Source of the DNA: Candidatus Parvarchaeota archaeon
GTDB lineage: Archaea; Nanobdellota; Nanobdellia; CSSed11-243R1
Direction of reading: 5' to 3'
DNA length: 64,000 nucleotides
NCBI GenBank assembly: GCA_015522785.1
Contig: WALP01000030.1
Coordinates: 1-64,000, forward strand
The notes under the pieces are model-generated. The model was given only the letters and a program-made list of their open reading frames with translations. It made no database searches and was not told the DNA's origin. Shown here piece by piece: positions 17,636 to 36,970 of the stretch (its first letter is position 1; the number at the start of each line of letters is the position of its first letter). Made by a program: the position numbers and the translations under genes.

Positions 17636-17751
17636 AGCCTCGAGAGGGACTCGAACCCCCGACCCCCAGCTATCTTGCTTTCCGTCAACGCTTTCGCGAA
17701 GCGGAAAGGGCTGTTACAAGGCTGGTGCTCTACCAACTGAGCTACCGAGGC
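17636..17751 (-). tRNA. tRNA-Thr (TGT) with a 43-nt intron
   Basis: The sense strand starts GCCTCGGTAGCTCAGTTGG. Acceptor GCCTCGG/TCGAGGC, D stem GCTC/GAGC, anticodon stem CCAGC/GCTGG with loop CTTGTAA (anticodon TGT), T stem GGGGG/CCCTC with loop TTCGAGT. The discriminator is T and no CCA is encoded. An intron of about 43 nt (about 17672-17714) lies at canonical position 37/38 and consists almost wholly of the core sequence shared with introns in tRNA-Pro, Ala and Lys. Confidence 0.93.
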
Positions 17752-25020: not shown

Positions 25021-25148
25021 AGGGCCCGAGGGGATTCGAACCCCCGACCTATTGGTCTCACTCTTTCACTTTTCTTTGGTACAGCTTTCTTTCCCAAAGA
25101 AAGGTGTGTTAAGAGCCAATCGCTCTGACCAGACTGAGCTACGGGCCC
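25021..25148 (-). tRNA. tRNA-Lys (CTT) with a 53-nt intron
   Basis: The sense strand starts GGGCCCGTAGCTCAGTCTGG. Acceptor GGGCCCG/CGGGCCC, D stem GCTC/GAGC, anticodon stem ATTGG/CCAAT with loop CTCTTAA (anticodon CTT), T stem GGGGG/CCCCT with loop TTCGAAT. An intron (about 25057-25109) lies at the canonical 37/38 position; its 5' part is the shared tRNA-intron core. The discriminator reads T, unusual for Lys. It is 60 nt from tRNA-Ala on the same strand, so both may be one transcript. Confidence 0.92.
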
Positions 25149-27994: not shown

Positions 27995-28137
27995 GCTTTC
28001 GCCCCCTTTTTTTGCAAAGATAAAAAGAGGAGATGATATATAAATTTTTACCCCTCTAAAATAACTAATCAAATTAGAAACCTTTATAAATCGATTTAGG
28101 CTAAAGTTTTTAAATATTTCGTTTGGGAGGGCGTATT

Positions 28138-29058
28138 ATGAAATCTGGTAAAATTACCAAATGTCCAAATTGTGGTTCTAAAGATTTGTATTGGGATAGA
28201 AAACGTGGGGAAGTTATTTGTAAAAAATGTGGTTTGGTTATCGAAGATAAAGTTATTGATTTTTCACAGGAATGGAGAGAATTTTCTGACCAAGGAGAAT
28301 CAAAAAGGAGAGTTGGTTCGCCTTTGACATATACGAAACATGACAAGGGGCTTTCCACTAAAATAGGCAAGTCTGGGGACTTGTCAAAGATGTCGCCATC
28401 TGAAAAAAGGATGTATTATAGGATGAAAAAATGGCAGACAAGGATTTCTACACCTATTGAAAGAAATTTGAAGTTTGCTTTGGCAGAATTAAAGAGAGTC
28501 GCAAGTTTTCTCGATGTTCCAAAGATAGCAGAAGAAGATGCGGCTATGATTTACAGAATGGCTGCAGAAAAAGGACTAGTTAGGGGACGAAGCATGGAAT
28601 CCGTTGTGGCGGGGGCTCTTTATGCATCATGCAGAAGGCATGGTGTTCCAAGAACTCTTGATGAAATATCAAATGCTTTTCCTCTTGACAAAAAGGAGAT
28701 TGGAAAAACATATAGATTCATATGCAGAGAATTAAGAATTAGGATTTTGCCAACTTCCCCGCAGGATTATGTGCAGAGATTCGCTTCTGAACTGCATTTG
28801 AAGCCTAAAACAGTTTCAAGAGCAGTTGAAATAATTAAAAAGGCAAATAAACTTGAGATAACAAGCGGTAAGGGTCCCATGGGGATAGCTGCAGCAGCAC
28901 TTTATGTCGCCGCTTTGCTTTGTGGAGAGAAAAAGACCCAAAGGGATGTAGCTGACGTGGCGGGAGTCACAGAGGTTACAATAAGAAACAGGTATAAAGA
29001 GCTCCTTGAAAAGCTGAAGCTTGAGGACCAAATCAAAAAAATACGCGAAAAGGCATAA
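28138..29058 (+). CDS. tfb: Transcription initiation factor B (TFB)
   Basis: A 306-residue protein with an N-terminal zinc ribbon (CPNCGSKDLYWDRKRGEVIC, then KKCG), a B-reader/linker (EWREFSDQGESKRRVGSPLT) and two cyclin folds (about 110-200 and 205-300) ending in a helix-turn-helix (VAGVTEVTIRNRYKELLEKL). TFB recruits RNA polymerase to TATA/BRE promoters. The ATG follows GGGAGGG. The promoter near 28075-28095 (GAAACCTTTATAAAT) resembles those of several other genes here. One tfb in this window. Confidence 0.97.
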   Translation: MKSGKITKCPNCGSKDLYWDRKRGEVICKKCGLVIEDKVIDFSQEWREFSDQGESKRRVGSPLTYTKHDKGLSTKIGKSGDLSKMSPSEKRMYYRMKKWQTRISTPIERNLKFALAELKRVASFLDVPKIAEEDAAMIYRMAAEKGLVRGRSMESVVAGALYASCRRHGVPRTLDEISNAFPLDKKEIGKTYRFICRELRIRILPTSPQDYVQRFASELHLKPKTVSRAVEIIKKANKLEITSGKGPMGIAAAALYVAALLCGEKKTQRDVADVAGVTEVTIRNRYKELLEKLKLEDQIKKIREKA

Positions 29059-29086: not shown

Positions 29087-29989
29087 TTACTCTAGGAATT
29101 CTACACTTTCTATTTTTCCGTTCTTTTCGACGCCGTACACAACTTTTGCCATTACATTCCTATTATACATATTTCCTTTACTTATCTTTGGGAGATACTT
29201 TTTGAAGGCATAAACTGCTGCTTTTGTTCCAGAGGATTCTAATCCCGCAAGCACAATAACACTTTTTGTTTTGTCAAAAGGATTTTTTATCCTACAGATA
29301 AATCCAGTATTTGGTTCGCTATACTCCTCTTTTGAAATTGTTGATATTATTTTATTTCCTGATTTATCGAATTTAATTGGTAAGTATTTGTTTAGTTCAG
29401 CCTGTAGTGTATTAACATGCATTCCTGAAATGACAATTAAGTTGCCTTTTTTTGTGTCAAGGTTCATATCTGTATAAACTAATTGTTCCTCGCTTGAACC
29501 AAATCTTCCAAGAGCCACTGCAATTTCACCAACTATATAAGAAGAACGACTTATTCTTTTCAACTTTCCGTGTGGAATTGTACTTCCAGCTACAATCTTG
29601 CAATTAATTTTACCATCTTCAATAAATCCATCAAGAATATGAGGTGGGGGTAAAAAAGCATTAATTGTTATTTCCTTTAATTTTGTTTTTACCCATTTGG
29701 GTATTATAGAATATGCAACAGGTTTTGTAGTATAATATGTTATTACACCTTCATCCGTTTTTTTTCTTTCTACAAAGTTATTTTTCTCTAACAGACGTAG
29801 ATGATAATATATCTTCTGCTCGTGTAATTTTAAAGATTTTGCAATTTTGAGGGGATACATCGGTTTTTCTGACAGGATTTCAAGTATTTTCCAACGTATA
29901 GGATGAGTAAGCACTTTTATGGCGTTCTTATCCTTTAAAACTTCTGTAGGTATTGCAATTTTACTTTTGATATCATATATATATTTCAT
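29087..29989 (-). CDS. HTH regulator with C-terminal S-layer-like domain
   Basis: A 300-residue protein. An ArsR-type winged helix-turn-helix lies at about 22-90 (LTHPIRWKILEILSEKP, IAKSLKLHEQKIYYHLRLLEK), followed by a domain with VAGSTIPHG, GRFGSSEEQLVYTDMNLDTK, and GNLIVISGMHVNTLQAELNKY, plus GTKAAVYAFKKYL. The latter segments recall the C-terminal domain of archaeal S-layer-type proteins. An HTH fused to such a domain suggests a ligand-sensing regulator. It is divergent from the 30.1 kb operon across a 140-nt A+T-rich gap, so it may control that operon. Confidence 0.6.
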   Translation of the reverse strand: MKYIYDIKSKIAIPTEVLKDKNAIKVLTHPIRWKILEILSEKPMYPLKIAKSLKLHEQKIYYHLRLLEKNNFVERKKTDEGVITYYTTKPVAYSIIPKWVKTKLKEITINAFLPPPHILDGFIEDGKINCKIVAGSTIPHGKLKRISRSSYIVGEIAVALGRFGSSEEQLVYTDMNLDTKKGNLIVISGMHVNTLQAELNKYLPIKFDKSGNKIISTISKEEYSEPNTGFICRIKNPFDKTKSVIVLAGLESSGTKAAVYAFKKYLPKISKGNMYNRNVMAKVVYGVEKNGKIESVEFLE

Positions 29990-30129
29990 ATTTTATCTTA
30001 GCTACTGATTATTTATAAAGTTTTTTATAAATTATAAAAATAATTTTAATAAAAATTTATCAAAAAGGTATATAAATCACTGGTTGTTATTAATCATTAC
30101 TTCAAAGTAGTATAATAAGGTGATATCAT

Positions 30130-31755
30130 ATGAAGTTCGTGTGTTTTGGTGGTGGAAACGCAATGCCAAACGTTGTATTAAGCGAATTGAAAAATTATGG
30201 CGTTGATATAGTGAGTGTTACATCTATGGTTGATAATGGGGGAAGCACTGGCGCTCTAAGGAGAGAATTGGATATTTTACCCCCTGGAGATATTAAAAGG
30301 CACATATTTGCATTATCGGATGCGGAAGAGTGGAAGAAAAAGCTATGGAAATTTAGATTTGCAAATTATCTTGTTTTTGAAGGGGGGCATAAAGGACATA
30401 ATTTTGCGAATATACTAATTGCTGGGCTTGAAAAAACAACAGATGACTATAAAGATGTGCTCTCATTTCTTCATAATTTTATGGAAGTTAGAGGAAAATG
30501 CTTACCCGCAACGATAAGCAAAACAATGCTTTATGCTGAGCTTGAAAATGGGGAAATAATCAAAGGTGAGGATGAAATTGATGTTCCAAAAAAACATGAT
30601 GGAAACTTAAAGATAAGTAGAATTTTTGTAAATCCTCAATCAAAAGCATACCCTTCAGTAATAAAAGAAATTAAAGATGCAGATGTTATACTAATAGGAC
30701 CTGGGGATTTATATTCATCCATTCTACCGAATTTTTTACATGATGGAATCGCAGAGGCAATTAAGAAGTCAAAGGCAAAGAAGATTTTTATATGCCCAGC
30801 TATGACTAAATTTGGGGAAACAAACGGATTCACTGTGGAAGATTTTGCAGATGAAGTTGAAAAGTATATTGGCAGTGAACTATATATTCTATATAATAAT
30901 ACACTCCCTGATGAAAGCAGAATACAATCCTATATGCATGAGGAACCTCTTGTTAGAGAGATTGTTCCATTCAGTAAAAATTTGCCTGAAAAATTTATCA
31001 GTGCGGATTTACTAAAAGATAGTGGTGGGATAGAGTACGATTCTTCAAAGGTAGTCAAGAAGATTCTTGACTTAGTTTATGGAAATAAAGTAAAAGGAAT
31101 CATTTTTGATGCAGACCATACTCTTTATGAGCATAATAAAGAATGGGCATACACTGCGATGCTTAATTACATAGAAGGGGAAGTTGGAGTTCCTAAGAAA
31201 AAGTTAATTCCAGCATGGATTAAAAATTATAATGCACATAAGCAGTATAAAGACTTAAATGCAAGACGCATTGAAAATGTTCTTAGTGATACATTGCAAG
31301 AGTTTTTAGATGTTGTCCCTGAGGAAGTTGTTTCCAAAGGAACCCAAATTTTTTGGGATAATCTGTTAAACAGTCTCGAATTTCATTATAATTTAAGTGA
31401 TGTAGTTGAAAAACTAAAAAAAGATGGGTACAAGCTAGCAATTTCAAGCGACGAATATAGAGATATTCTTGAAATGAAACTTGGAAGAGCCATTCCGAAT
31501 TGGAAAAGATATTTTGAGGTTGTTGTAACCTCTGACGATGTTGGCAGCATGAAACCATCAAGAAAGTTCTTTGATTTGGCAATTGAAAAGCTAGGGCTAA
31601 AGCCAGAAGAAGTTTTGGTTGTAGGAGATTCTTACGAGAGAGATTTAAATCCAGCAGTTCAGGAATGTGGGACTCGTGGATTTCTAGTCAGAAATCTTTC
31701 TGATATCGAAAAAGTACCACATTTGGTTTCAGATATAGGTGATATAAATGGATAA
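30130..31755 (+). CDS. CofD/YvcK-like domain fused to a HAD hydrolase
   Basis: A 541-residue fusion. Residues about 1-320 form a CofD/YvcK fold: CFGGGNAMPNVVL, VSVTSMVDNGGSTGALRREL, LPPGDIKRH, GHNFANILIAGL and DVILIGPGDLYSSILPN. Residues about 325-540 are a HAD phosphatase: IIFDADHTLYEHNKEW (D-x-D), LAISSDEYRDI, SMKPSRKFFDLAIEKLGL and VVGDSYERDLNPA. CofD transfers 2-phospholactate to Fo in F420 synthesis, while YvcK binds UDP-sugars; which branch applies is unclear. First gene of the operon; ATG after AAGGTGATATC. Confidence 0.78.
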   Translation: MKFVCFGGGNAMPNVVLSELKNYGVDIVSVTSMVDNGGSTGALRRELDILPPGDIKRHIFALSDAEEWKKKLWKFRFANYLVFEGGHKGHNFANILIAGLEKTTDDYKDVLSFLHNFMEVRGKCLPATISKTMLYAELENGEIIKGEDEIDVPKKHDGNLKISRIFVNPQSKAYPSVIKEIKDADVILIGPGDLYSSILPNFLHDGIAEAIKKSKAKKIFICPAMTKFGETNGFTVEDFADEVEKYIGSELYILYNNTLPDESRIQSYMHEEPLVREIVPFSKNLPEKFISADLLKDSGGIEYDSSKVVKKILDLVYGNKVKGIIFDADHTLYEHNKEWAYTAMLNYIEGEVGVPKKKLIPAWIKNYNAHKQYKDLNARRIENVLSDTLQEFLDVVPEEVVSKGTQIFWDNLLNSLEFHYNLSDVVEKLKKDGYKLAISSDEYRDILEMKLGRAIPNWKRYFEVVVTSDDVGSMKPSRKFFDLAIEKLGLKPEEVLVVGDSYERDLNPAVQECGTRGFLVRNLSDIEKVPHLVSDIGDING

Positions 31756-32851
31756 AATAATAGAAGCCCTTGGTTATACCTCCTGGTACATTGATGAAAA
31801 GAGAGAACAGTTTGAGAGACAATTAAAATCAATAGGCGCAAAAAATTTAATGATATCCATGGATGTTCAGGGACCTCTTACAAGACTGATAGATGCGGGT
31901 TTCTTTCCGTGGTGGGGTGTTGCAACATCTCTTCATTTTCTTGAGAGTCGCGTTCAGGAATATATACCCATTGCAATAAATTCGGGATGGGACTTGTCCA
32001 CGCTTATAAACTTTAGAGATAAGCGGTTAGGGGATAATTCGATTAATCTAATTGGCGAAGACGGTGCAGTATATCTGAAGGATAACAAGGTTAATGAGGT
32101 AAATCCAATTGCGGAAGATATTTATTATGGTATGATAAGGAATGTTATCGAAAATGCGGCGGAGGAAAATCTGAAAATAGCGTTTCAAGGAAATTTCTCT
32201 AAAAGAGTCGGATGTATATACATCGAGGGCGACGCTCCAGAAAGAGGAGATATACGAAATCATTTTCTTGTCAAGGGAAGCAATGTTCCTACAAGAGACA
32301 TTTATAATGCAATCAAAGAAAGGGATAACAATAACCTTTTTGGATTTGATGGAGAATATGTTGAATTTGAACCTGAAGGTATTGCTTTGCTTGATGAAGT
32401 TATGAGAAAAGAATATCCTCTCCAGTCAATCAGGTTGAGAGAAGAAAATGGTAAATTATACTTTAAGAGGGATGATAAAGAAAATAAAAGCTTCACTCTT
32501 GATGATATGGTTAATTTCTTTGAGGAAAGCGTGCCCGAAAGCTGGAAGATAGATGTGAATCCAGATTACAATGCAGACATCATATATATTGGGGACGGAA
32601 AATCTCCAACAAAGGAAACAACCGCGAACATTTTGGGGAATGAAATTTTTGGCGATGAAGACTTTGCCATAACTCATATCGGAGACAAGCCGGGAGATGT
32701 TTTCAAAGGAAGAAACACAATATTTTTTGCACAATATGGTACTCCAGCACATAAATATTGCGAAGAAAATAACATCCCCCACGTTCCGATTATAAGCGCG
32801 GTAGATTATCTGCTTACAATCACAAGCTATTTAGCTAAAGGGGGTAAATAA
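31748..32851 (+). CDS. HAD-superfamily protein, C2-cap type, with altered motif I
   Basis: A 367-residue protein. Motif I reads MDVQGPLTRL, keeping the nucleophile Asp but replacing the acid/base Asp (usually D-x-D) with Gln. Later come IAINSGWDLSTL (motif II), LIGEDGAVY, and motif IV THIGDKPGDVF. A large insertion between motifs II and IV fits a Cof-type cap. The missing Asp means phosphatase activity is doubtful, so it may be a phosphomutase-like or binding protein. It overlaps the upstream gene by 8 nt. Confidence 0.68.
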   Translation: MDKIIEALGYTSWYIDEKREQFERQLKSIGAKNLMISMDVQGPLTRLIDAGFFPWWGVATSLHFLESRVQEYIPIAINSGWDLSTLINFRDKRLGDNSINLIGEDGAVYLKDNKVNEVNPIAEDIYYGMIRNVIENAAEENLKIAFQGNFSKRVGCIYIEGDAPERGDIRNHFLVKGSNVPTRDIYNAIKERDNNNLFGFDGEYVEFEPEGIALLDEVMRKEYPLQSIRLREENGKLYFKRDDKENKSFTLDDMVNFFEESVPESWKIDVNPDYNADIIYIGDGKSPTKETTANILGNEIFGDEDFAITHIGDKPGDVFKGRNTIFFAQYGTPAHKYCEENNIPHVPIISAVDYLLTITSYLAKGGK

Positions 32852-32852
32852 A

Positions 32853-33635
32853 ATGGTATTTGAAGATTTAGAAGGTAAAAATGCACTTGTTGTTGGCGTC
32901 GGCGGTATCGGCGGAGCAATAGCCAGTGAGCTTTGGAAAAATGATATGGATGTTACAGTGGTTGATAAAAAACCGCTTGAGGAACTGGTGAACGTGTGGA
33001 GTGAATTTGGCATAGAAATTGACGCTGATAAAATCCACTACAATCAATTGGATGTTACAAAAGAAGAATACCTTAATTTTCTGGAAAAAGGCGATTTTGA
33101 TGTTTTTGCGTATTCGGCGGGCGTTGGAGAGCCCACACCTGTTGGAGAAGACAATCAGAGAATATACAGGAAATTGTTTGAGTTAAATGTACTTCCTTTT
33201 ATGAGTAGCGTTGACATTCTTGCTCGTAAGGAACATCATCCATCATCCATAATAGTTGTAAGCAGCATTAATGGATACAGGAGCGAGCATTCTATGGAAG
33301 CGTATGATATGACGAAGGCCGCACTCATACAGTATGTTAGAACGGCATCTTTGGATCTTGGGGAAAAAGGGATTCGCATAAATGCAGTGGCTCCTGGATA
33401 TGTTCGCACGCCGCAGACGATAGAAGAAGTACACAAAGAAGATATAAGAAACACAATTGTTTCTGCGACTCCTCTTGGAAGAATAGGCGAGCCGGAAGAT
33501 GTAGCCCATGTTGCTGCAGCTCTCGCCAGCGACTATTTCGGTTTTGTGACAGGCGCCGTCTATGAAGTTTCCGGCGGGCTCGGACTCGCACAATATCAAA
33601 AGATTGAAAAACAAAATAACTTGGGGGTGAAATAA
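32853..33635 (+). CDS. Short-chain dehydrogenase/reductase (SDR)
   Basis: A 260-residue Rossmann enzyme: VVGVGGIGGAIASEL (NAD(P) binding), DVFAYSAGVGEP (N-N/SAG motif), VVSSINGYRSEHSMEAYDMTKAA (catalytic Ser, Tyr, Lys), and NAVAPGYVRTPQ. The C-terminal DVAHVAAALASDYFGFVTG strand and VSGGLGL end are typical of classical SDRs. It oxidises or reduces an alcohol or keto group on an unknown substrate. Lies 1 nt after the HAD gene stop. Confidence 0.9.
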   Translation: MVFEDLEGKNALVVGVGGIGGAIASELWKNDMDVTVVDKKPLEELVNVWSEFGIEIDADKIHYNQLDVTKEEYLNFLEKGDFDVFAYSAGVGEPTPVGEDNQRIYRKLFELNVLPFMSSVDILARKEHHPSSIIVVSSINGYRSEHSMEAYDMTKAALIQYVRTASLDLGEKGIRINAVAPGYVRTPQTIEEVHKEDIRNTIVSATPLGRIGEPEDVAHVAAALASDYFGFVTGAVYEVSGGLGLAQYQKIEKQNNLGVK

Positions 33636-33636
33636 A

Positions 33637-35046
33637 ATGGTAACTAAAGTCGTTCAACTTGGAGTTGGACAACAAGGTAAAAAGAATTTGGATAAACTCG
33701 CTCATTTGCGAGATAAAGAAGATTACCCAATAGATGTTATTGGGATAGTTGATGTAGACAAGAAAAAACTCGACGGGGTTAAAGACATTTTTCCAGAAGC
33801 AGAATTAGTTGTTGGAAAATCAAACAAAGTATTACCACATTTTAGGGATGCAAATCTTGTTTTTGACTCAACAAACACACCACATCATCTAGAAAACAGC
33901 AGCGTATGGGCAGAAGTAGGAAAAAAAGGAAGTGTTTATTCTTGTGAAAAGCCGTTCGCATTAGCACCACGCAAGGTATTTCTTGACTCATATATTGGCA
34001 ATATGACTGTAGATGGAGGTATTGGCTCGACCATATTAGATATGGACTCTAAAGGAATTACACCAATGGTAAACGCAGTGGAATCTTATATGGATACCAA
34101 AAGAGTTAGCTTAGATTTCATAAAGAAAAACGGATTAAAACTTGAAGAATTCTACTACTTTAGAGGCGGCTCGGTAATCGACAAAATGAAAAAGACAGGT
34201 AGAAATATACTCCGCGACTTCGGCGGAGCATTTGAAGATAAGTTATCGCATGATATATTCAAACTCTTACAAACAATTAAGGCATCCTATGGTATTGAGA
34301 ATAGTATTGAAAATAGATTGTATAATATGGTGTCTCCAAGTGGAAATTTATACACATTGGGGCTTCTTAAAGATGGCAAGATAATTTATGTAACGCCGGA
34401 TGGAGAATTGACGACAGAGTTTAATAGAATGAATAATGACTCTTACGCAGATGTTAATCTGGGGTTATATCGTGGTGATGATTTTAGTATTAGTGGAAAA
34501 TTAGTGGCGACACATCTTGGAATTCCAGAGCCGCACAGAAGCAAGCTTGAAGAAATGCTAACTCCAGAAATTAAGGAAGCGGTGGCAGAATATGCGAGAG
34601 AGAAAGGTGTCGAATTGTCGCCAGGTGATATACATGGCGCATATGGATTTGATGATGGAATAGAAGCACGTATGGAAGAATTGAAACTCAAAGATGGAAG
34701 CAAAATAATTTCGCAGACATACGGAAATTTCTTTACGGTTTATGTGTCTCCCGAAGGAGAGCCGGAAGTACTTCAGTACGGCTGGACAGATGGACATCTC
34801 GGATATGTGAGAAATGCCGTTGAAGTTGCTATGGGAAAAACAGAACCTCTTGCAGGTGCAGAAATTATTGATAAAAGTGAGGATATCTCTACAGCAATTG
34901 GGGCTGTTTACGTTGATGAATCAAAGTATAGTTATGGTGATGTGCATAGTCTTCGTGGCAATCGCATAGAAGTTTTTGACTTGAAGGAATACCCAGAGAT
35001 AGCAGAAATGTTCGAGCCGGATTTGTCGAGAGTGATTAATGGGTGA
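33637..35046 (+). CDS. Gfo/Idh/MocA-like oxidoreductase
   Basis: A 469-residue protein with an N-terminal Rossmann fold (QLGVGQQGKKNLDKL; VIGIVDVDKKKL) and a CEKPFAL motif at about residue 106, the E-K-P hallmark of Gfo/Idh/MocA enzymes. The remainder is longer than usual and carries a RGGSVIDKMKKTGRNIL region and an extra C-terminal alpha/beta part with no match I recall. These enzymes oxidise sugars, inositol, or reduce biliverdin and similar compounds. Only 1 nt from the SDR stop, with GGGGGTGAAATAAA as ribosome site. Confidence 0.8.
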   Translation: MVTKVVQLGVGQQGKKNLDKLAHLRDKEDYPIDVIGIVDVDKKKLDGVKDIFPEAELVVGKSNKVLPHFRDANLVFDSTNTPHHLENSSVWAEVGKKGSVYSCEKPFALAPRKVFLDSYIGNMTVDGGIGSTILDMDSKGITPMVNAVESYMDTKRVSLDFIKKNGLKLEEFYYFRGGSVIDKMKKTGRNILRDFGGAFEDKLSHDIFKLLQTIKASYGIENSIENRLYNMVSPSGNLYTLGLLKDGKIIYVTPDGELTTEFNRMNNDSYADVNLGLYRGDDFSISGKLVATHLGIPEPHRSKLEEMLTPEIKEAVAEYAREKGVELSPGDIHGAYGFDDGIEARMEELKLKDGSKIISQTYGNFFTVYVSPEGEPEVLQYGWTDGHLGYVRNAVEVAMGKTEPLAGAEIIDKSEDISTAIGAVYVDESKYSYGDVHSLRGNRIEVFDLKEYPEIAEMFEPDLSRVING

Positions 35047-35049
35047 TGA

Positions 35050-35478
35050 GTGGTGTTCTACAAAAGAAAAAATAAAGGCGAGGATAATCCTCCACGGGAT
35101 TATCCTTCTAATGTTTACAAATTAACAAAGAAATGGGGTGGACTTCGTCATAAGTCAGAAGAAAAATCTCCAGATGATAACCAAACTGTTTTACTAAATA
35201 CAGCTGATCGTATAATGGATGATATTTTATCACCCATTATAAGAATTGATGGTTTTTCAGAGTATCTTAGATGGTCAGCTACTTTTTTGTATCCAATTTA
35301 TTATATCCTCAATGATATTATTGGATCTCATCCTAGTGGAAGCTCTGGTATTGCAATGATATCTACGATGGGTGCAGCAGATATTTTGTATAACAGATAT
35401 AGAAAGAAGAAGATAGCAAAGGAAACAGATGAAATAATGTGGGAGTTAAACGAATTGGAAAAGAAGTTGGGTGATTAA
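35050..35478 (+). CDS. Small membrane protein at the operon end
   Basis: A 142-residue protein with a basic, disordered N-terminus, one or two hydrophobic segments at about 75-110 (ATFLYPIYYILNDIIG, then GIAMISTMGAADILY), and a charged C-terminal helix (KKKIAKETDEIMWELNELEKK). Starts with GTG immediately after the MocA-like gene (GGGTGATGA ribosome site), so it belongs to the operon. No family recognised. Confidence 0.6.
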   Translation: MVFYKRKNKGEDNPPRDYPSNVYKLTKKWGGLRHKSEEKSPDDNQTVLLNTADRIMDDILSPIIRIDGFSEYLRWSATFLYPIYYILNDIIGSHPSGSSGIAMISTMGAADILYNRYRKKKIAKETDEIMWELNELEKKLGD

Positions 35479-35523: not shown

Positions 35524-35892
35524 TTAGTTTCTTTCCCAAACATCATCCGACAGGGAGTTGTAAATGTTTTGGTTTTCTGTTTGTTTTTCATTTTTTGTTT
35601 CTTTGGGCTCCAAAAACCAATATGAAAGTTCATTTATGAAATAATAACGTCCAACCATGCGTACCATATGACTTTCGCCTAAAGAAACATTTCTTATTTT
35701 TAAAATTCCGATGTCGTAAAGATAGTTAAACAGTACTCTATCTTCGCTAGTTAGCATCGTATCTACTATCCCCTTATGAAATCCAAATATGTTTAGCAAG
35801 TAAGTCGCGATGCTCTCCGAATCCCCCTCAAATGCTTTACCACCGAGGTGTTCTTTAATTAGTTCAACTAATTCTTCTTTTCTTATATACAT
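35524..35892 (-). CDS. DUF6015-like winged-helix protein
   Basis: A 122-residue protein that from memory matches an archaeal family with the pattern FGF-x-I-D-x-L-T-x2-D-R-x-LF-x-L-x-D-x-GIL; here it reads FGFHKGIVDTMLTSEDRVLF and NYLYDIGILKI, then a YYFINELSYWFLEP strand. The C-terminal tail is Asn/Gln/Glu-rich. Probably DNA- or protein-binding. The ATG at 35892 lies after the Trm1 gene end; a longer frame would overlap it. Confidence 0.5.
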   Translation of the reverse strand: MYIRKEELVELIKEHLGGKAFEGDSESIATYLLNIFGFHKGIVDTMLTSEDRVLFNYLYDIGILKIRNVSLGESHMVRMVGRYYFINELSYWFLEPKETKNEKQTENQNIYNSLSDDVWERN

Positions 35893-35899
35893 AATCTCA

Positions 35900-36970
35900 C
35901 TAAAAAGAGTAGTTTGTCCTAATTCCCTTACCACTAAAATGAGTGCGCGAGGCTTTAAATCCTTCTTTCTTTAATTCCTTAACTACCTCGTCAAGTTTTT
36001 TATCTTCCCATCCAAGCTCCCCAACTTCATAAAAGTAGGGAACATTTATCTTAGACTCTTCGAGCAGGCGGTTGAGGAATTTTTCGTGTTTTTTTGTCAT
36101 TTGCTTTATATATTTTGGATTTTCAAGCGAAATCATCGTTTTAATCAATTTTGAGTCCCACAAATTTCCAATATATAGTGGTCCAGCAAAAGAAAGCTTG
36201 TTTCCACACTTACATTTTTCGTGCATTTCAAATTTTGTCGCAAATCGTCTCTTGCATTTCGGACAGTAATATATAAATCCAATATCTTGGAGAATTTCTT
36301 TTACATGGCTTCTTTTTGACTGAAAATAAATTCTATAATAGTGTTGAGTTGCATGGGCAAAAATTGGTTTTAAAGAAATATTTTGTTTTGCGCCGAGCTC
36401 AATTACCGCTTTCGCAAGGATTCTAATCCCAATTTCGTGTGAAAACTTGGTTTTCAGTGAAAAACTCCCATATTTTCTAAAGCATGTCCATGGGTAAACT
36501 CCAAAAAGTGGGGCTGTGTCCGTCGCTGTGACTGCGAGGATACCGTCTTTTGCTAATCTTGGAATTGCCTGGCTTATGAAATTAATTGGTGAACCAAACG
36601 GGTCGATATCAATGAAATCAAATTTTTCCTTCATTGTCGCCATCAGTTCATTGGCGCGATTGTTTGAGATTTTAATTGGAGTAATTTTGTTGAGTTTTGC
36701 ATTTTTTTTGATTAACTTCACAGCTTCTTTGTTTATATCATTGAACCACACTTTAGCTTTCGCTTCTTTTGCCAAGCGGAGCCCTCTTGCACCGCTTGCT
36801 GCAAGCAAGTCAAGAACTTTCTCTTTGCCAGTTGCTCTTAAGAAAAGAATTGAAATATCCCTATCAAATTCCTTCGCCGGATTGTAAAAAACAGGGAGTT
36901 TCTTTGAAATTTTCCCCAACGGAGCATAAAATTTTGTTTTTCCTTCATTTATAATCTCATATTTTGTCAT
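35900..36970 (-). CDS. trm1: tRNA (guanine26-N2)-dimethyltransferase
   Basis: A 356-residue class I methyltransferase. GKTKFYAP at the start and VFYNPAKEFDRDISILFLRA are Trm1 hallmarks. SAM binding is at VLDLLAASGARGLRLAKE, WFNDINKEAV and FDFIDIDPFGSPINF. Catalytic-loop region TATDTAPLFG and a zinc-binding insert (CPKCKRRF, then CKCGNKL) follow. It makes m2,2G26 in tRNA. Downstream gene start at 35892 is close behind. Well conserved; strong call. Confidence 0.96.
   Translation of the reverse strand: MTKYEIINEGKTKFYAPLGKISKKLPVFYNPAKEFDRDISILFLRATGKEKVLDLLAASGARGLRLAKEAKAKVWFNDINKEAVKLIKKNAKLNKITPIKISNNRANELMATMKEKFDFIDIDPFGSPINFISQAIPRLAKDGILAVTATDTAPLFGVYPWTCFRKYGSFSLKTKFSHEIGIRILAKAVIELGAKQNISLKPIFAHATQHYYRIYFQSKRSHVKEILQDIGFIYYCPKCKRRFATKFEMHEKCKCGNKLSFAGPLYIGNLWDSKLIKTMISLENPKYIKQMTKKHEKFLNRLLEESKINVPYFYEVGELGWEDKKLDEVVKELKKEGFKASRTHFSGKGIRTNYSF

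Follow-up and report, generated by a model that had tools for sequence, protein, structure and literature searches.

Background

What would a tightly packed operon, led by a CofD-like protein fused to a phosphatase, make in a small archaeon? The question arises from a locus in the 64,000-nucleotide stretch of archaeal DNA analysed here (the window), which is part of a small archaeal MAG of 578,669 bases that is 69% complete. The original prediction for this locus described a single pathway, in which a phosphorylated group would be transferred and removed and two redox steps would follow on a sugar-like or lactate-like compound, perhaps related to a lipid head group or a cofactor.

A functional link between GlmR/YvcK and GlmS is already known from Bacillus. 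Bacterial GlmR binds UDP-GlcNAc and both interacts with and acts on GlmS, and in B. subtilis residues Y265 and R301 are needed for UDP-GlcNAc binding (PMC7525490). In Listeria, GlmR is an accessory uridyltransferase for which D40, D41 and N198 have been proposed as catalytic residues (PMC10128056). PMC7525490 names CofD as the product of the archaeal glmR homologue. In the open-access literature, no title or abstract was found to describe an association of CofD/GlmR with GlmS in archaea/DPANN.

Results and discussion

Layout and genomic setting of the island

All six predicted ORFs, and the operon that five of them form, proved real. The five are tightly packed on the + strand (30130-35478), and a regulator gene (29087-29989) is divergent on the - strand. 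The gene for the CofD-HAD fusion (30130-31755) overlaps that of P3 (31748-32851) by 8 nt, single-nucleotide gaps separate P3 from the SDR gene (32853-33635) and the SDR gene from P5 (33637-35046), and the last small ORF (35050-35478) follows P5 after 3 nt. Joins by overlaps or 1-nt gaps, as first described, are thus present at three junctions and do not extend to the last ORF.

The island is flanked by TFB (28123-29058, + strand) on one side and by a DUF6015-like ORF (35524-35934, - strand) and TRM1 (35900-36970, - strand) on the other. In most relatives TFB and TRM1 adjoin or nearly adjoin and the island is absent: they are 30 bp apart in one genome (G002) and approximately 90 bp apart in another (G006), and are separated by just the DUF6015 ORF in a third (G001) and by one different ORF in a fourth (G004). 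For this reason, the regulator and operon are most simply read as an insertion between these two genes. Because a fifth genome (G003) carries a different insertion there, encoding a 2798-aa putative surface protein (L076:4833-13229), the TFB-TRM1 interval is a site of variable content. A recent foreign origin of the island was considered on the basis of composition and rejected, as its GC content and codon usage fall within the range of the window. Elsewhere in the window, Rfam tRNA matches occur at 17636-17751 (116 bases) and 25021-25148 (128 bases); ARAGORN reports neither, and both are possibly intron-containing tRNA genes.

A CofD-like domain of the YvcK/GlmR type

The predicted CofD/YvcK-HAD fusion is borne out by strong Pfam matches of the 541-aa protein to CofD (PF01933; E-value 1.7e-67) and HAD (6e-22), the CofD-family domain occupying residues 1-316 and a HAD subfamily IA phosphatase residues 317-541. 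The CofD domain scores 233.5 bits against the YvcK model TIGR01826, for which the curated cut-off is 196, and the PDB entries that it matches best are UPF0052/YvcK structures; the F420-type CofD model is not among its 25 best NCBIfam rows. Judged by these models, the domain is of the YvcK/GlmR type and not of the F420 type.

Over residues 1-316 the protein therefore belongs with YvcK/GlmR (CuvA) of Firmicutes and Actinobacteria (TIGR01826; PDB 2hzb, 2o2z, 2ppv, 2q7x, 2p0y), from which it differs in being archaeal, in its fusion to a HAD phosphatase and in changes at the proposed active site and the C-terminal RHD motif. At the positions equivalent by eye to the proposed uridylyltransferase residues D40, D41 and N198 (Listeria numbering), the first Asp and the Asn are kept, whereas the second Asp is replaced by Asn. 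The C-terminal RHD motif reads EYD, and VYD in the closest relatives. In the fused HAD domain, the FDADHTLY motif is intact, and this domain groups with NTase-HAD proteins of relatives.

CofD relatives belong to an amino-sugar cassette

The CofD-HAD protein was searched against 371 genomes of the phylum, after which CofD loci were fetched and their neighbours mapped. Matches, some of them to the HAD part only, were obtained in 108 genomes. Among 61 CofD loci, an NTP-transferase (a label that takes in generic sugar nucleotidyltransferases) lies within five genes of CofD in 31, a HAD gene in 29 with a further three fused, and GlmS in 13, although the genomes are related and these counts are not independent. 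By Pfam, the neighbours include GlmS (GATase and SIS domains), a GlmU-like NTP-transferase with hexapeptide repeats, and glucosamine-6-phosphate isomerase-like, inositol-phosphatase-like and transaldolase genes. The two CofD domains most similar to that of the window (57-59% identity) both sit in GlmS operons, ordered GlmS-HAD-TAL-NagB+IMPase-CofD-NTase and GlmS-TAL-IMPase-CofD-NagB-NTase. Fusions among the relatives are of the HAD-CofD, CofD-NTase-HAD and NTase-HAD types; one triple fusion, CofD-NTP_transferase-HAD, is a protein of 933 aa (L121:6649-9450). Across the phylum, the cassette around the CofD gene is conserved: its other members encode GlmS, a HAD phosphatase and a GlmU-like nucleotidyltransferase, and they are either neighbouring genes or parts of fusions. 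The link to GlmS and UDP-GlcNAc that is functional in bacteria is matched in the archaeal relatives by a gene link to GlmS, and in place of the bacterial yvcJ-yvcK pair the archaeal partners are HAD, NTase and GlmS.

Compared with the cassettes of the same phylum in which CofD accompanies GlmS and HAD and/or NTase (L112, L113, L135, L144 and L160), the window locus lacks GlmS and the NTP-transferase and adds P3, the SDR, P5 and the small ORF. A full GlmS was not found in the 69% complete MAG either.

This context bears on the part of the original prediction in which the CofD activity transfers a phosphorylated group. A true 2-phospho-L-lactate transferase, as in F420 biosynthesis, or a related phosphodiester-forming enzyme would make the operon a source of an F420-like cofactor or lipid head group. 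The match to PF01933, a family that is named after CofD and shared with the F420 enzyme, would fit such an enzyme, as would the first loop, which reads GGGNAMPN in place of GGGTGxS and contains a Pro that we take to be a CofD feature. The domain nevertheless passes the YvcK model, its solved relatives are UPF0052/YvcK proteins, the neighbours of its relatives are amino-sugar genes with no cof gene found at annotated CofD loci, and the operon holds no other F420 gene. On the YvcK model and the gene context we rejected this reading as very unlikely. The transfer step, the lactate-like compound, the cofactor and the lipid head group are not supported, while the sugar-like substrate and the two redox-type enzymes were, in our judgement, rightly foreseen.

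The divergent regulator and a candidate operator

The regulator combines an ArsR-like winged HTH (residues 27-74; Pfam E-value 5.6e-9) with an S_layer_C domain (PF05124; 6.7e-6), in agreement with the HTH and S-layer-like domains originally noted. Proteins of this family are widespread across the class, and PF05124 is carried by 16 of 17 members; the family profile finds a solved S-layer protein as well (9fsa, E-value 4.6e-4). In 19 of 21 relatives, a gene for GlmS or an NTP-transferase is no more than one gene away from the regulator gene and divergent from it. A divergent regulator also accompanies a CofD-containing operon in five other genomes: at four of the 61 CofD loci (L135, L138, L144 and L160) it faces a GlmS or NTase operon with CofD among its genes, and at one (L165) CofD itself. 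Three of the GlmS-CofD-HAD-NTase cassettes (L135, L144, L160) therefore share the window's regulator family. The window regulator fits the family pattern in its winged HTH, its PF05124 domain and its position opposite a CofD operon, and has lost the C-terminal DxDGDGxID loop that most members possess. In many relatives (L193, L194, L197 and others), a gene of approximately 350 aa that appears pelota-like by eye adjoins the regulator gene.

A 26-bp palindrome, ACCATTATAA-n6-TTATAATGGT, is common to the intergenic regions of relatives (L190-L204, L138, L144, L165 and L112), where it precedes genes for the regulator, GlmS and NTP-transferases, in nine families by our count. In a leave-one-out analysis it was the top match of its locus in all 10 loci used, with scores of 19-32 bits in relatives. 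When 1.37 Mb of fetched loci were scanned, all picked for holding the regulator or CofD so that the specificity is not genome-wide, 27 matches scored above 15 bits, including two that repeat sites already counted in an overlapping locus. Almost all of them are directly upstream of regulator, GlmS or NTP-transferase genes, and one precedes the GlmS..CofD operon whose CofD is closest to that of the window; no match in 1 Mb of random sequence exceeded this score. The palindrome is a candidate operator in the relatives. It is not recognisable in the divergent intergenic region of the window (29990-30129), where the best match reaches 7.2 bits at 30030. This region holds an AT-rich imperfect palindrome of its own, ATTATTTATAAA-gttt-TTTATAAATTAT (approximately 30008-30035), which was rejected as an operator, as approximately 8% of random sequences match it.

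P3, the SDR, P5 and the last ORF

The predicted SDR is borne out as a classical oxidoreductase, which matches PF13561 (E-value 7e-38) and has the YxxxK motif. P3 and P5 are orphans, with no Pfam, NCBIfam or PDB family match. No relatives of either were found in 371 genomes of the phylum, in genome contig scans that detect close relatives only, in a viral contig scan, or in phage or plasmid searches. Their AlphaFold2 single-sequence models had a pLDDT of approximately 33 and were excluded from fold search.

P3 had been called a second HAD protein. It has type-IIB-like motifs (MDVQGPL as motif I, NSG, IGEDGAVY and GDKPGD), in which the nucleophile Asp, the SG and the GDxxxD are present and motif I has DVQ in place of the usual DxD. 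Its N-terminus aligns with type-IIB HAD proteins with weak statistics: three true HAD proteins score better, and P3 comes fourth of 101.

P5 was compared by hhalign with a profile of 25 Gfo/Idh/MocA proteins, which leaves out YcjQ as presumably belonging to a different dehydrogenase family. Residues 2-208 align with a probability of 72% (P 3.4e-5), placing P5 at rank 1 ahead of all window proteins and shuffled controls. The Rossmann glycine motif at the N-terminus, the EKP lysine (CEKP) and GG..D..H (GG..ED..SHDI) follow in order. PF01408 gives no match above cut-off for P5, nor any in the genome. These comparisons support the predicted Gfo/Idh/MocA enzyme, in the form of a divergent member. 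The last ORF (142 aa, GTG start) belongs to no recognised family and is weakly hydrophobic only, with a best 19-residue hydropathy mean of 0.87; its description as a membrane protein is not supported.

The tight spacing of these genes also bears on whether the island is a working unit. It could be what remains of a decayed GlmS-CofD-HAD-NTase operon that no longer serves a pathway, in keeping with the missing GlmS and NTase, the unrecognisable operator and the HAD motif I of P3, which lacks its second Asp. The ORFs, however, are all long, intact and closely spaced, and their codon usage is ordinary for the window, which leaves decay a most improbable explanation.

The expectation of conserved gene order held in part. 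The regulator, CofD and HAD are kept together with amino-sugar genes in relatives, whereas no locus of a relative was found in which P3, the SDR, P5 or the last ORF accompanies CofD or the regulator. The amino-sugar module might therefore consist of the regulator, CofD and HAD alone, the remaining four genes being an unrelated catabolic or redox set co-transcribed by chance. That P3 and P5 have no relatives agrees with such a set, but this lack carries no information, and sugars are common substrates of enzymes of the HAD, SDR and Gfo/Idh/MocA types. Furthermore, the 8-nt overlap and 1-nt gaps imply a single transcript. We regard a chance association as unlikely, though well worth weighing.

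A probable derived amino-sugar regulon

On balance, we think that the island is probably a derived amino-sugar (UDP-HexNAc) regulon, extended by P3, the SDR and P5, in which a sugar is modified for a surface glycan. The cassette context, the position of the regulator and the palindrome in relatives are the reasons for assigning the leading half of the island to such a regulon. The ancestral archaeal set would have comprised GlmS, CofD/GlmR, HAD and an NTP-transferase, with the HTH protein as their divergent regulator. GlmS and the NTP-transferase would since have gone from the locus, CofD/GlmR would have been fused to its HAD partner, and P3, the SDR, P5 and the small ORF would have been appended in the same operon. 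The GlmR-like domain may bind a UDP-sugar or act as an accessory uridylyltransferase, and in this way sense or feed the amino-sugar pool. The HAD domain and P3 would dephosphorylate phosphosugars of an amino-sugar type, the SDR and P5 would carry out redox changes on the sugar, and the product would be a modified sugar for a surface glycan. Since P3 and P5 have no detectable relatives, the complete pathway is a proposal: we infer the ligand binding, the substrates, the order of reactions and the participation of P3, the SDR and P5 in one pathway. Set against this regulon are the missing GlmS and NTP-transferase, the operator that is not recognisable in the window, the second Asp to Asn and RHD to EYD changes in the CofD domain, and the lack of context from relatives for P3 and P5.

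A parallel is offered by the kanosamine pathway of Bacillus subtilis (NtdA/NtdB/NtdC), in which a HAD phosphatase acts together with a sugar-phosphate dehydrogenase of the Gfo/Idh/MocA type. The island differs in having an SDR and no aminotransferase, and neither P3 nor P5 matches the Ntd proteins or any related PDB chain in sequence.

More speculatively, and with limited confidence, we suggest that small archaea of this phylum use the S-layer-domain transcription factor and the 26-bp operator to match amino-sugar nucleotide synthesis to the demand of a glycosylated surface layer. The circuit would include GlmS, the GlmR-like CofD, HAD and the NTP-transferase, and the window island would be a diverged copy whose new enzymes make an unknown modified amino sugar.

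Conclusions

The conserved set of GlmR-like, HAD, GlmS and NTase genes in an archaeal phylum suggests that the GlmR-GlmS link is not restricted to peptidoglycan makers. P3 and P5, both orphans, may perform new sugar chemistry. Given the S-layer-domain regulator and a defined candidate operator, the control of sugar-nucleotide supply can be tested directly in these organisms.
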